Origin: Acidobacteriota bacterium
Lineage (GTDB): Bacteria; Acidobacteriota; Terriglobia; Bryobacterales; Bryobacteraceae
DNA: 33,614 nt
Reading direction: 5' to 3'
NCBI GenBank assembly: GCA_016870995.1
Contig: VFZU01000060.1
Span: forward strand, 1-33,614
Shown here piece after piece: positions 5,501 through 12,766 of this stretch. The notes beneath the pieces were generated by a model. It saw nothing but the letters and a program-made list of their open reading frames with translations, was not told the origin of the DNA and searched no databases. How positions within the stretch are numbered: position 1 is the first letter of the stretch; each line of letters starts with the position of its first letter. A program made the translations under genes and the position numbers.

Positions 5501-6631
5501 TCAGTTCTTTACAACGGTCGAGGCGCTGGTTGGGCACGGCACATCTGGATTAGGACATGCCAGATCGGGTTCCGGCTCGGGATCTTCGTCGCTGAAATTG
5601 ATCTTCCAATCGGAGATGCCCATCAGATAGAGGCGAGCGGTTTGGCCAGCAAGGTGGTCGGATTGGCCGGGCTCGAGGCCAAGCACTTGAGGATAATACC
5701 CGGGGTATCGGATGATGTCGGAATTATTGAGCAACCGGCGCGGAGGGCGCCAGGAGAATGGATCGGAAAGATCTGAGTTAAACGTAATGTCGATCCCAGC
5801 CTGCGGCCAGCCCGGATTGCAGCAGCTGCGATTCAGCAAGATCACGTACTTGTCGAGATGCGTGTTGTAATGGACCGCCGGCCCCCAATGTGAGTCCGTG
5901 TCAGAAGACTGCCAGGATCGAACAGCGGGGAAAATCGGGCTGACTTTGCCGCCGATACCGGGCTGATTAAAACGTCCCAGGTGAAACTTGAAGACTTTGC
6001 CAGAGGGGTTGAATCGATCCTCAAAGGCCATGCGCGCAGTGGCAACACCCTGCGACGAAACTGGGCCTCCGTAATTCGTGAAGAAGAAGTAAAAATACCT
6101 TCGATCCTTATCCAAAATGACGCTGACGTCGCCATGGCCACCAGAGAAAAAGCCATTCTTCGCATCACAATCGAGAGAATCACCAGACTCCAGCACGATT
6201 CCGAGGTCCTGCACCGTTGCTCCGTTATCAAGTGAAATGGCAGCTCCGATTTTCGGAGCCGTGAGGTTATCATCACCGCATCGCTTTTCAGGTTCGTGGT
6301 GGCAGAAGAGAAACAAAGTGCCGTCGTCGTCTTTCCAGACCGCTTCAAACCAGACCGGACTGTGCTCAACGGAGTCGAAGGAGACCTTGCGTGTGTTTCC
6401 AAGCTGGAACTGGTCGGGCCCGCTAGAAATATGAGGGACCCCCGTGGAATGGAACAGATGCATCACGCCGTCAGCCCAGAACGCTGCGCTGTTGCCATCA
6501 ATGACTGGAGGAAGTTCGACACGGTTTACAAGGCGCAGAGATGCCGATTGGGCAAACGCCATCGTAACCAAGATGAAATATACAGCAAAGAAGCGACGAA
6601 GCATCGAGACAAGAGTCTGATGATTAAACAC
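5501..6631 (-). CDS. secreted beta-propeller protein, glycosidase-like (GH43/GH32-type fold suspected)
   Basis: The 376-residue protein starts with an export signal (LRRFFAVYFILVTMAFAQS, cleavage expected after AFAQ). The body has the spacing and aromatic, Asp-rich strands of five-bladed propellers: PPVIDGNSAAFWADGVMHLFHS, HSPVWFEAVWKDDDGTLFLF, SGGHGDVSVILDKDRRYFYFFF and WGPAVHYNTHLDKYVILLNR. Conserved Asp and Glu residues would suit a glycoside hydrolase, but I cannot assign a family or substrate. Several Cys residues (HHEPEKRCGDD, DSLDCDAKNG, NRSCCNPGW, and LACPNPDVPC near the end) suggest disulfides outside the cytoplasm. The start shown is a GTG; ATG at 6604 would shorten the leader by 9 residues, and neither has a strong ribosome site. 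It diverges from the aroF leader. Confidence 0.7.
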   Translation of the reverse strand: MFNHQTLVSMLRRFFAVYFILVTMAFAQSASLRLVNRVELPPVIDGNSAAFWADGVMHLFHSTGVPHISSGPDQFQLGNTRKVSFDSVEHSPVWFEAVWKDDDGTLFLFCHHEPEKRCGDDNLTAPKIGAAISLDNGATVQDLGIVLESGDSLDCDAKNGFFSGGHGDVSVILDKDRRYFYFFFTNYGGPVSSQGVATARMAFEDRFNPSGKVFKFHLGRFNQPGIGGKVSPIFPAVRSWQSSDTDSHWGPAVHYNTHLDKYVILLNRSCCNPGWPQAGIDITFNSDLSDPFSWRPPRRLLNNSDIIRYPGYYPQVLGLEPGQSDHLAGQTARLYLMGISDWKINFSDEDPEPEPDLACPNPDVPCPTSASTVVKN

Positions 6632-6651
6632 AACTCGCTGTTACTTTGTTT

Positions 6652-6680
6652 TTGTAAAGAAGCGTTAAGCGTGGTATGAT
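6652..6680 (+). promoter_or_regulatory. predicted sigma-70-type promoter of the aroF operon
   Basis: TTGTAA (6652-6657, 4 of 6 consensus) and TATGAT (6675-6680, 5 of 6) are separated by exactly 17 bases. A transcript starting 6-8 bases after the -10 box would begin at 6686-6688, on or next to the A of the leader-peptide ATG at 6687. The mRNA would then be leaderless or nearly so. The promoter is read by eye and no start site has been measured. Confidence 0.6.
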
Positions 6681-6686
6681 TTTGCT

Positions 6687-6770
6687 ATGGCCCCACGCCA
6701 CTCGTATCGATTTTGGTATTGGTATTTCGCCCCGCGCGAACGAGTGGACTTGTCTGCCATGAAGAACTAA
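6687..6770 (+). CDS. aromatic amino acid leader peptide of aroF (attenuator peptide)
   Basis: This 27-codon open frame encodes a peptide whose centre reads SYRFWYWYFAPR. Of 10 residues at positions 7-16, seven are aromatic: Tyr7, Phe9, Trp10, Tyr11, Trp12, Tyr13 and Phe14. All three aromatic amino acids, the end products of the pathway opened by the downstream DAHP synthase, are represented. The frame starts at the predicted transcription start and ends with TAA 22 bases before the terminator hairpin. Its first part also encodes arm 1 and its later part arm 2 of the competing RNA hairpins. The short length, codon content and position fit a classical ribosome-stalling leader as in trp and pheA operons. 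There is no clear ribosome binding site, which fits translation of a leaderless mRNA. Confidence 0.85.
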   Translation: MAPRHSYRFWYWYFAPRERVDLSAMKN

Positions 6771-6826
6771 TCCCAATTTTTCCGGTTTAGTCAAAGGCCC
6801 ACTCGGATGTTCCGAGTGGGCCTTTT
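6698..6826 (+). promoter_or_regulatory. transcription attenuator of aroF with four competing RNA arms
   Basis: Four complementary arms are visible. Arm 1 is CCACTCGT (6698-6705), arm 2 ACGAGTGG (6740-6747), arm 3 CCCACTCGG (6798-6806) and arm 4 CCGAGTGGG (6812-6820). Arms 1:2 pair over 8 bases, 2:3 over 7 bases and 3:4 form the terminator, and these pairings exclude one another. A ribosome held on the Phe/Trp/Tyr codons (6711-6728) covers arm 1 and leaves arm 2 free to pair with arm 3, so the terminator cannot form. A ribosome that reaches the TAA at 6768 lets 1:2 form behind it, which frees 3:4 to terminate. The reading is that aroF is expressed when charged aromatic tRNAs are scarce. The pairings are seen in the sequence; the mechanism is inferred from known attenuators. 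Confidence 0.85.
6793..6826 (+). terminator. attenuator terminator before aroF
   Basis: A perfect 14-bp stem (AAAGGCCCACTCGG at 6793-6806 with CCGAGTGGGCCTTT at 6812-6825) has the 5-base loop ATGTT and ends in a TTTT run. It lies between the leader-peptide stop and the aroF start. An in-frame ATG for aroF in this loop at 6807 is therefore unlikely to be the translation start. Confidence 0.88.
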
Positions 6827-6851
6827 GGCGTTTCTGGATCGGAGTTTTGCC

Positions 6852-7652
6852 GTGAAATTATTAGTGAGCCGAGACGTACAACCCGAAAACAGCATTGTCC
6901 GCGTAGGCGACGTCGCCTTCGGAGATGGAAACTTCGTTGTGATGGCTGGCCCTTGCAGCGTTGAAAGCGAAGAACAACTCATGCAGTGTGCCGACGTGAT
7001 CGCAAGCAGCGGAGGGCAGTTGTTGCGAGGCGGAGCATTCAAGCCTCGAACTTCGCCTTATGAGTTTCAAGGGCTAGGTGAGGAAGGGTTACGATTGCTC
7101 GCCTTGGCACGAGAGCGATTTGGGCTTGGAATCGTCACTGAGGTCATGAGCGAAGCCGATGTAGATCTTGTGGCGGCATATGCGGACCTGATGCAGGTCG
7201 GCGCTAGAAACATGCAGAACTTTGCATTATTGCGAGCTTTGGGCCGTTGCGGGAAGCCAGTTTTGTTGAAACGCGGCCCCTCGGCAACCTTGAAGGAATG
7301 GATGATGGCCGCGGAGTACATCCTGGCCAGCGGCAACCCCGATGTGGTGCTCTGTGAGCGGGGAATTCGGAGTTTCGACTCTCATACGCGCAATGTCTGC
7401 GATATCGCTGCCGTGCCTGCAATGAAAGAAATGACACATCTGCCGGTGATTCTCGATCCTTCACACGCAACTGGGCGAAGAAGCCTGGTGACCCCGTTAT
7501 CGCGTGCGGCAGTGGCAGTTGGGGCCGATGGGCTGCTGGTGGAATGCCATCCCAATCCAGACACGGCGTTGAGCGATGGGGCGCAGAGCTTGACGCTTGA
7601 CCAGTTTCGAGCGCTGATGATGGAGTTGCCTTGCCGTATCCTGAAGTCGTGA
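6852..7652 (+). CDS. aroF: 3-deoxy-7-phosphoheptulonate (DAHP) synthase, type I-beta
   Basis: This enzyme condenses phosphoenolpyruvate and erythrose-4-phosphate to DAHP, the first step of the shikimate pathway. The 266-residue protein carries the family signatures [45 protein letters not shown] and [10 protein letters not shown] (metal- and PEP-binding segments) of the AroA/KDO8P-synthase barrel. Only about 30 residues precede the barrel, so the N-terminal ferredoxin-like feedback domain of the Thermotoga-type enzyme (about 338 residues) is missing. The enzyme may lack direct feedback control and rely on the attenuator upstream (inference). The start GTG 6852 has GGAG 7 bases before it; the ATG at 6807 sits inside the terminator. 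The next gene overlaps the stop by 4 bases (GTGA). Confidence 0.93.
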
Positions 7653-10961: not shown

Positions 10962-12011
10962 CTAGTTGAGGAAATAGGTACGGTAGAGCGTATCGCGTTG
11001 TTTCGGCATGAAACCAGCGTCGCGAATGAGTCGACGCAGGTCTTCTTCAGATGCCTGGAAACGAGCTCCGGCCTGGGAGACAACGTTTTCTTCAATCATG
11101 ATGCTGCCGACGTCATTCCCGCCAAAACGCAGGCCCATCTGGCAAACCTTAAGGCCTGGTGTCACCCAGGAAGTTTGGATGTTCACGATGTTGTCGAGGT
11201 AGACACGACTGATGGCGAGCATCTTAAGGAACTCCACGGCGGTAGCTTCTTCTTTAACGAAGCGTCCGAGGGAGGTGCCTTCGCGCTGAAAGCTCCAGGG
11301 GATGAAGGCGGTGAAGCCGCCGGTTTCATCCTGGAGACGACGAATGTGCTCAAGATGATTGAGGCGGTGATCAAGGGTTTCGCCCGTGCCGAACATCATA
11401 GTGGCAGTAGTGCGGATGCCAAGCTGATGGGCTGTGCGGTGGACGTCGAGCCATTCTTCGGTATTGCATTTCAGGCGAGCAATGCGGTGACGCACCTCGT
11501 CGTCGAGGATCTCCGCACCCGCGCCTGGAATCGACTGAAGGCCAGCATCACGCAATCGAGCCAGTGTGTCGCGAACGGTGATGCCGGAGATTTGAGCGAT
11601 GTTGAGAATTTCAGGTGCAGAAAGGAAGTGGAGCCAGATGCGGTCACCGAACTTGTCCTTGATGGCGCGGCAAAGTGCCTCATACCATTCGATCTTGAGT
11701 TCAGAATGGAGGCCGCCTTGCATGAGTACGCCTGTACCGCCGAGGTCGATCGTCTCCTGAATCTTTTCGAAGATGGTGTCGTTCGAGAGGATATAGCCCT
11801 CGGGAGAATTCATCGGGCGATAGAAATTGCAGAACGTGCAGTACTCGGTACAAAAATTCGTGTAGTTGATGTTGCGATCAATGATGTAGCTAACGACACC
11901 TTCCGGGTGGTAGGCTTTACGCACCTGATCGGCGGCCATGCCGACGCCAATCAGATCAGGCGAGTGGAAGTAGTCGCGAGCTTGTTCACGCGTGGTTCGG
12001 GTTAGATTCAT
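10962..12011 (-). CDS. mqnC: cyclic dehypoxanthine futalosine synthase, radical SAM
   Basis: MqnC cyclises dehypoxanthine futalosine with a SAM-derived radical in the futalosine route to menaquinone. The 349-residue protein has the [4Fe-4S] motif CxxxCxxC at C54, C58 and C61 (NFCTEYCTFCNFYR). It also shows the MqnC-type segments GGTGVLMQGGLHSELKIEWY, LQSIPGAGAEILDDEVR, TTATMMFGTGETLDHR and TAFIPWSFQREGTSL. Its length is normal for the family. Its ATG overlaps the mqnA stop by 4 bases (ATGA). Other mqn genes (mqnB, mqnD, mqnE) are not in the window. The alternative 7,8-didemethyl-8-hydroxy-5-deazariboflavin synthase fits less well because of the mqnA neighbour. Confidence 0.95.
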   Translation of the reverse strand: MNLTRTTREQARDYFHSPDLIGVGMAADQVRKAYHPEGVVSYIIDRNINYTNFCTEYCTFCNFYRPMNSPEGYILSNDTIFEKIQETIDLGGTGVLMQGGLHSELKIEWYEALCRAIKDKFGDRIWLHFLSAPEILNIAQISGITVRDTLARLRDAGLQSIPGAGAEILDDEVRHRIARLKCNTEEWLDVHRTAHQLGIRTTATMMFGTGETLDHRLNHLEHIRRLQDETGGFTAFIPWSFQREGTSLGRFVKEEATAVEFLKMLAISRVYLDNIVNIQTSWVTPGLKVCQMGLRFGGNDVGSIMIEENVVSQAGARFQASEEDLRRLIRDAGFMPKQRDTLYRTYFLN

Positions 12012-12766
12012 GTGGGTTGTTCAGCCTCCATTTTCATGGCGTGTTCGATGTAGAGTTTCATTCCACGGCGGCATTCGTCTGTGATTTCGTACTTGATGAT
12101 CGAATTCAGGTACTCGTAGGCAAGGCCGGGCCAGATGTGGCGAGGAGCGGCTTCGGCCATCACGATTTCTTCAAGGGATTTACGGCCGGTCGCGTAGCTC
12201 TGCTCCAGAATGGCGGCGAGATCGGTGTTTTGCTGATGGCCGGCCCAGATCGCAAAAACCATGGGAAGGGCCGTGAGTTTCAACCATTCCTCGCCGAGGT
12301 CAAGGACGTGGAGGCCAGTGGCGTTCGGGTCGATGCGAAGGGCGGGATCTCCAATGATTAGGGCGGCGTCGGATTTGCCGAGCATGGCAGTGAGATCGGG
12401 GGCCATGACAGTGGTTTCGGGTACGACCTTATAGGCCTCGCTCAGAATGATGCGGGCCAGCATGACGGATGAGCGTGAAGATGAATCGAGAGAAAGGGTG
12501 CGGACCTCTGGAATGGGAACTTTGCTGAGCAGAAGGATACTCCGGACGGGGCCATGGCAGGCGATGCCGAGGGAGCCGATCTGGGTGAGATGCTGCCGGG
12601 CAGCTTCGATCACGGGAACGAGGCCAGCGTCGACTTCCTTGGCTGCCAAGCGGGCGGCGCAAACGGCGGGAAGATCGAAATCGAGCTTCAATTGTGGGGA
12701 TCCAGACATGAGGCCCCAAACAAGGGGGCGCGTATTTAGGTAACTCACTGCCGAAATATGCATCAC
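12008..12766 (-). CDS. mqnA: chorismate dehydratase (menaquinone biosynthesis)
   Basis: MqnA dehydrates chorismate to 3-enolpyruvyl-benzoate, the first step of the futalosine pathway. The 252-residue protein has the periplasmic-binding-protein-like fold of PF02621: the starting motif ISAVSYLNTRPLVWGL, the LAAKEVDAGLVPVIEA segment, LSLDSSSRSSVMLARIIL and DAALIIGDPAL. The start has two adjacent ATGs (12766 and 12763). Its stop overlaps the mqnC start. The 21 bases between it and the divergent secreted-protein gene leave little room for two separate promoters, so these probably overlap. Confidence 0.94.
   Translation of the reverse strand: MMHISAVSYLNTRPLVWGLMSGSPQLKLDFDLPAVCAARLAAKEVDAGLVPVIEAARQHLTQIGSLGIACHGPVRSILLLSKVPIPEVRTLSLDSSSRSSVMLARIILSEAYKVVPETTVMAPDLTAMLGKSDAALIIGDPALRIDPNATGLHVLDLGEEWLKLTALPMVFAIWAGHQQNTDLAAILEQSYATGRKSLEEIVMAEAAPRHIWPGLAYEYLNSIIKYEITDECRRGMKLYIEHAMKMEAEQPT

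Follow-up and report, generated by a model that had tools for sequence, protein, structure and literature searches.

The region upstream of aroF in the window carries what we read as a classical ribosome-mediated transcription attenuator, acting on a leaderless transcript and regulating the one type I-beta DAHP synthase identified in the genome; we put the probability of this reading at about 0.9. The window is the whole stretch of 33,614 nt analyzed here, namely contig C60 from an acidobacterium resembling Bryobacter, whose genome spans 5.7 Mb. A promoter match, a leader peptide frame, pairing arms, three-way covariation, the spacing between codons and arms, conservation, and gene context were observed and form the basis of the reading. 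The features are listed in Table 1.

Table 1. Elements of the aroF leader region, with positions in the window
Feature	Position	Strand	Description
Sigma-70-type promoter	6652–6680	+	TTGTAA (6652–6657), 17 nt, TATGAT (6675–6680)
Leader peptide frame	6687–6770	+	27 codons, MAPRHSYRFWYWYFAPRERVDLSAMKN; ATG 6687–6689, stop 6768–6770
Arm 1	6698–6705	+	CCACTCGT; pairs with arm 2
Arm 2	6740–6747	+	ACGAGTGG; pairs with arm 1 or arm 3
Arm 3	6793–6807	+	AAAGGCCCACTCGGA; 6799–6805 with arm 2, full stretch with arm 4
Arm 4	6811–6825	+	TCCGAGTGGGCCTTT; 3' half of the terminator hairpin
Terminator U run	6823–6826	+	TTTT, four U
aroF ribosome-binding site	6841–6844	+	GGAG, read from the sequence
aroF	6852–7652	+	GTG start; type I-beta DAHP synthase, 266 aa; 26 nt on from the arms

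The predicted transcription start is the A of the leader ATG, with 6 nt between the −10 hexamer and the ATG. Codons 7–14 of the leader read Y R F W Y W Y F and are thus aromatic in seven of eight positions (Tyr7, Phe9, Trp10, Tyr11, Trp12, Tyr13, and Phe14), in agreement with the first-pass annotation, which had described a 27-codon leader with Tyr, Phe, and Trp at seven of these positions. The lengths given there for helices 1:2 (8 bp) and 2:3 (7 bp) hold, the latter being formed by CGAGTGG (6741–6747) and CCACTCG (6799–6805). The 14 bp given for the terminator helix is to be corrected to 15 bp, with three outer A–U pairs formed with the T run. The U run described before aroF is present, though it has only four U, and because it is so short, the terminator is not listed by a generic scan that wants five T in eight. 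An intrinsic terminator (15-bp hairpin and U4) is nevertheless present between the leader and aroF. The computed energies of helices 1:2, 2:3, and 3:4 are −9.4, −7.7, and −27.7 kcal/mol, respectively. In the window alone, the pairing of arms 1 and 2 is above that in all 100 shuffles, and the pairing of arms 2 and 3 is equaled or exceeded by 13 of 100. Since these 13 shuffles do as well, the support for helix 2:3 of the window comes from its relatives.

The element is no chance occurrence: it recurs upstream of aroF in numerous Acidobacteriota that belong to the same class as the window. The leader frame is present in all seven same-genus loci examined, the window included, and Tyr7, Arg8, Phe9, Tyr11, Trp12, and Tyr13 are invariant among them (7/7). 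A leader-plus-terminator rule is met in 114 of the 240 distinct regions upstream of aroF relatives, compared with 1/1200 dinucleotide shuffles, 1/240 reverse strands, and 1/602 other windows. The passes are 4/7 in the genus, 52/71 in the named loci, 17/35 in the family, 4/19 in the order, 22/66 in the class, 1/27 in the rest of the phylum, and 14/15 in the pattern loci; these are not unbiased frequencies, because the loci were picked by similarity to aroF of the window or by pattern. Some of the passes with long frames may be due to chance. The remaining 126 regions gave no call, and the rule also misses true cases, including three of the seven genus loci: the window itself, whose T run is too short, L003, and L007, where the aroF match begins at residue 64 and the gene start could not be placed. 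A looser rule does find the element of the window. With a stricter rule used earlier, 92 of 211 regions pass, compared with 3/633 shuffles, 0/211 reverse strands, and 1/493 other windows. A strict sequence pattern, GAGTGGCGT-N(15-45)-CCCACTC-N(3-12)-GAGTGGG, has matches in 28 of the 299 class genomes searched, and its reversed control has none; all 28 matches lie at aroF, as judged from the catalytic domain for 26 and from the FL start for two at contig ends. The genome of the window has no match to the strict pattern.

For the analysis of the arms, the window and L003 were added to the 114 passing regions to give 116 rows. Omission of L183 (whose long frame has no suitable arm 2), L040 (where arm 2 is mis-anchored), and L124 (a Tyr-only leader from outside the class) left 113 leaders. 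Of these sets, 97 leaders are non-redundant, 96 have the 45 nt of upstream sequence needed for the promoter and Shine-Dalgarno (SD) count, and 95 have a stem core recognizable for three-way covariation. The omitted L124, from the phylum sample, has the leader MSLLQGVYYYYSSYRPGP and a terminator before a DAHP synthase gene and is perhaps an independent Tyr attenuator. In other families of the class, L225, L228, L234, L237, and L244 are divergent, with a GCCCGCC/GGCGGGC stem, a different arm 2 position, and long leaders (32–45 aa) rich in aromatic residues. Nine loci are likely second aroF copies (L171 and L173–L180); five were not anchorable, and four were anchored and gave no call, so that no conclusion on second copies is drawn from four of nine.

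The pairing between arms 2 and 3 ranks in the top 5% against shuffles in 87 of the 116 rows. The corresponding count for arms 1 and 2 is only 25 of 112, and helix 1:2 is therefore weakly supported as a feature of the family. In 58 diverse sequences, 82.8% of the cells in helix 2:3 are paired, compared with 34.1–46.9% when the arms are slid against each other. Nineteen cells are changed on both sides, a number reached in none of 500 shuffles, and the covariation score is reached in one of 500; pair count (170/500) and type count (25/500) are weaker measures. Slides by −1 to −3 columns give 20–33 both-sided changes as against 19, with far fewer pairs. In helix 3:4 of the same 58 sequences, 97.8% of the cells are paired and 30 are changed on both sides (0/500 shuffles), with pairs at 53/500 and types at 98/500; slides give at most three both-sided cells.

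The bases at two variable positions of the stem core should be noted. The arm 2 base tracks the arm 3 base with Watson-Crick pairs in 75/81 and 77/92 sequences, and none of 5000 permutations is as high at either position. The 15 exceptions at the second position are all G–U. Where the second position is C and arm 2 is paired, G is found in both arm 2 and arm 4 (9/9 sequences). In three genus loci (L003, L004, and L006), arm 3 is changed and arm 2 does not follow except by G–U; arm 2 of these loci fits its own arm 3 no better than arm 2 of other loci does. Over the family, arm 2 pairs with arm 3 in an antiterminator exclusive with the terminator, with three-way covariation. The stem sequence is nearly frozen, presumably because one arm must match two partners. 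Conserved aromatic-rich short frames before aroF and covarying arms had been named at the outset as the signs to look for in related genomes; the frames lie in the right place, and arms 2, 3, and 4 covary.

When 151 genomes of the class were searched with a covariance model spanning arm 2 to the terminator, 59 matches reached E ≤ 1e-6; 58 of them are at aroF, and many of the matched loci are in or near the seed alignment. Thirty of the 58 were placed by tblastn (one via the FL start only), three at contig ends via the FL start, four from further fetched loci, and 21 by the coordinates of aroF matches on the same contig. The single match elsewhere (L353 in G184) looks like a terminator between convergent genes. 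At E ≤ 0.1, matches are found in 119 of the 151 genomes. Nine weaker or off-contig matches without aroF were sampled (L352–L356 and L359–L362), and four of these were examined in detail; L352, L353, and L355 look like ordinary terminator hairpins between convergent genes. In L356, from the same family (G028:C33:434100-437400, approximately 1540–1700), the leader MTAGIAPRTHHHHHHGHRVSRRADG is closely preceded by a TATCCT box, and a hairpin that carries a T run stands before a frame resembling HisI by eye. This locus is probably a His attenuator. Rfam gave no match at the gathering score in the window, three weak and unrelated matches in ten loci up to E 1, and three unrelated weak matches in 6600–6900 up to E 10. 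A T-box or riboswitch is thus unsupported by the Rfam searches.

Judging from the sequences around the leader start, translation of the leader very probably takes place on a leaderless mRNA. In 68 of 96 leaders, including 36 with a distance of 9 nt, the best TAnnnT hexamer is 6–10 nt upstream of the first codon, and an SD-like site precedes only six of the 96 leaders as against 79 of 90 aroF starts. In Streptomyces lividans, the distance from the −10 hexamer to the start site is 6.3 nt on average (range 4–9), according to the available part of PMC8079986, and by this spacing transcription here would start at the ATG or within a few bases of it. The leader frame at the extreme 5' end of the transcript is a likeness to the leaderless trpL1 of S. 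lividans (same source) and trpL of Sinorhizobium meliloti (PMC10117765, available portion), both upstream of trpE; those leaders differ from the present one in carrying Trp only.

The positions of the aromatic codons relative to arm 2 are consistent with ribosome stalling. In the window, 14 nt separate the start of the last aromatic codon from arm 2. Among the 113 leaders, 67 have their nearest aromatic codon (counted from 6 nt upward) 14–17 nt before arm 2, which is about where a stalled ribosome would leave arm 2 free. This codon is closer than 12 nt in 24, chiefly divergent members in which arm 2 may be mis-assigned. The commonest distance is 14 nt in the genus (6 rows), 15 nt in a gp2-like group (15 rows), and 16 nt where arm 2 lies at the stop codon (70 rows), and therefore different layouts agree on nearly one distance; the other 22 rows, in which arm 2 falls at some other place within the frame, have a median of 8.5. 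Across the 113 leaders, the share of aromatic codons rises from 0.24 at 12–14 nt from arm 2 to 0.66 at 15–17 nt. The edge of a ribosome lies approximately 12 nt past the A-site base. With the edge assumed 12 nt on, the RNA preceding arm 4 is calculated to fold into helix 2:3 at −18.4 to −23.1 kcal/mol when the A site is at codon 7 or at codons 9–14, and at −8.4 kcal/mol or weaker when it is at codon 16 or beyond.

The following mechanism is proposed. RNA polymerase would start at the leader ATG, and ribosomes would begin on the 5'-terminal AUG. When charged Phe, Tyr, and Trp tRNAs are plentiful, the ribosome would run through the leader and cover arm 2, leaving helix 3:4 to form as the terminator. 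When any one of these charged tRNAs is short, the ribosome would stall at one of codons 7–14 and cover or separate arm 1, with arm 2 free just ahead; the free arm 2 would pair with arm 3, and transcription would read into aroF. If the leader is not translated, helices 1:2 and 3:4 would form and transcription would stop. Antitermination must win by kinetics in this scheme, because helix 2:3 is far weaker than the terminator.

The composition of the leaders should also be noted. Phe, Tyr, and Trp occur together in 103 of the 113 leaders, compared with 78.2 ± 4.3 after permutation (maximum 91 in 2000 permutations); the excess is no strict probability, because the leaders are related by descent. 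The residues amount to 352 Phe, 232 Tyr, and 167 Trp, with Trp in 107 and Tyr in 109 leaders. An R-[FY]-W core is present in 48 of the 97 non-redundant leaders, whereas shuffling of the residues gives an expectation of 4.6 and never more than 15 in 300 trials. Where Arg precedes two aromatic (or aromatic-Thr) residues, its codon is CGA in 44 of 75 cases, compared with 7% of the Arg codons of aroF, and Phe in the 97 leaders is encoded by TTT in 75%, compared with 28% in the aroF coding sequence. Slow codons, RNA folding, or a function of the peptide may account for this codon bias and for the core.

The readings differ mainly in what the leader senses. The codons would allow sensing of all three end products, and the mixed composition is conserved. 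To a tri-specific OR gate, in which shortage of any of Phe, Tyr, and Trp opens the common entry enzyme and which is leaderless, widespread in one class, and in the genus a replacement for the lost feedback domain, we give even odds. Codon content alone leaves the sensing unsettled, because the Phe-Tyr-Phe leader aroR of Corynebacterium glutamicum is reported to answer Phe and not Tyr (PMC11802643, in its available part). The attenuator could likewise sense effectively only one or two amino acids, Phe or Tyr foremost, with the other aromatic codons tolerated owing to fast decoding or to a constraint at the RNA level. This is a serious possibility, somewhat short of an even chance: Phe is the commonest aromatic residue, and its TTT preference points to some extra constraint, but Trp and Tyr occur in nearly all leaders, the joint presence of the three exceeds permutation, and Tyr7, Phe9, Tyr11, Trp12, and Tyr13 are invariant in the genus.

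Two further explanations set aside codon-by-codon sensing or the attenuator itself. In TnaC, the nascent peptide stalls the ribosome in response to Trp, and an R-[FY]-W core could by analogy stall it on a free amino acid. The core is indeed more frequent than the need for aromatic codons alone explains, but common descent probably accounts for it in many members, 49 of the 97 leaders lack it, an end product that induced in its free form would increase its own synthesis rather than reduce it, and the run of aromatic codons ends at the distance from arm 2 set by the ribosome edge, as fits codon-by-codon sensing; we consider such an arrest improbable. A plain terminator of an upstream transcript, accompanied by an aromatic-rich frame arising by chance, would be in line with the ordinary-looking hairpins among the weaker model matches. 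It is given almost no weight against the 114 of 240 real regions that combine leader and terminator, as opposed to 1 in 1200 shuffles, and the covariation of arm 2 with arms 3 and 4. The first-pass observation of an attenuator is thus confirmed and its interpretation supported; the leaderless start and the missing regulatory domain of the enzyme described below were absent from it.

The aroF product is a DAHP synthase, as had been annotated, with matches to PF00793 (264 bits) and NF006421 (425.7 bits; cut-off 335). The alignment with NF006421 starts at profile position 71 of 338; the catalytic domain is present and the N-terminal FL domain is absent. Only 27 codons are open upstream of the aroF start, and the FL domain was not found there. 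The N-terminal extension of one relative (L009) matches residues 1–86 of PDB 1rzm, which we take to be the Thermotoga maritima enzyme. According to the available part of PMC6362186, feedback by Phe and Tyr in the 1rzm-type enzyme is carried by a ferredoxin-like domain, and type I-beta DAHP synthases without a regulatory domain are generally not inhibited. The FL domain served as the anchor in 232 of the 240 distinct upstream regions; the other eight are six genus loci, L007, also of the genus, and L012, whose FL domain looks broken. In a gene tree of 75 of 112 rows, the six short enzymes form one clade (100/100), and their sister group is not resolved; the bootstrap of this tree had not settled. 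The bare catalytic barrel is a likeness to the type I-beta enzyme of Pyrococcus furiosus (PMC6362186, same part); the present case differs in that close relatives still have the ferredoxin-like domain and an attenuator accompanies the bare form.

Seven of the eight genomes of the genus have an aroF match at 81% identity or more, and the eighth (G402) has a KDO8P-like match only, with no aroF match. G484, with 6% contamination, has an additional, longer DAHP synthase copy at 58% identity. Second DAHP synthases encoded by longer open frames (337 and 360 aa) lie approximately 3 kb from TrpC in G001:C242 and G484:C241; the genome of the window does not show such a copy. In the latter genome, aroF is the sole type I-beta DAHP synthase found, and a second DAHP-synthase-like gene is a KDO8P synthase. 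The genes found there for the Trp and Phe branches encode an anthranilate synthase, TrpC, and prephenate dehydratase. Trp auxotrophy, raised by an empty search for the TrpE N-terminal domain, was ruled out by the TrpE-type anthranilate synthase and TrpC. No Trp-rich leader was seen in the stretches around the anthranilate synthase and TrpC genes. Another chorismate user is encoded approximately 3.3 kb from aroF, in the form of menaquinone genes of the futalosine route (mqnC and a VitK2_biosynth protein; 10962–12766, minus strand). Because the enzyme of the genus is without an N-terminal regulatory domain, the attenuator may be the main control of aroF there, and an exchange of enzyme feedback for RNA control in the genus is plausible.

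The system is of a known kind in a new place. In trpL and pheL of Escherichia coli, four arms pair exclusively, and the leaders have ribosome-binding sites. Both are named as attenuators in the available part of PMC11802643. The present element resembles them in its leader codons, its arms 1–4 with exclusive pairing, and its terminator; it differs in that those leaders are each specific for a single amino acid and regulate a terminal branch. The nearest precedents are C. glutamicum aroR and an aroF motif of Acholeplasma. The aroR leader is said to have been described by Neshat et al. in 2014. It lies upstream of aroF and resembles the present one in regulating a DAHP synthase gene through leader-peptide attenuation and in having aromatic residues of more than one kind; it differs in belonging to an actinobacterium and in its Phe-Tyr-Phe composition, with no Trp mentioned and a response to Phe, not Tyr, in the available parts of PMC11802643 and PMC4046766. 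The uORFC-13-1 motif upstream of aroF, with 24 representatives from Acholeplasma and environmental sequences (PMC8632094, available part), shares an upstream open reading frame with Phe, a terminator, and aroF; unlike the present element, it has a ribosome-binding site, is reported with at least one Phe, and occurs in other organisms. A partly available source has aroF leader candidates for Shewanella, and a survey of Actinobacteria names no aroF case in the parts covered. No leader attenuator in Acidobacteriota was found among the literature matches listed, which comprise titles and abstract openings; the 2010 Lopatovskaya survey could hold one.

The codon content of the present leader is broader than in the described aroF cases found. 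The family is a natural system in which to test whether three amino acids can be read by a single leader, and the genus, whose enzyme lacks the feedback domain, is a case in which the RNA switch has been kept.
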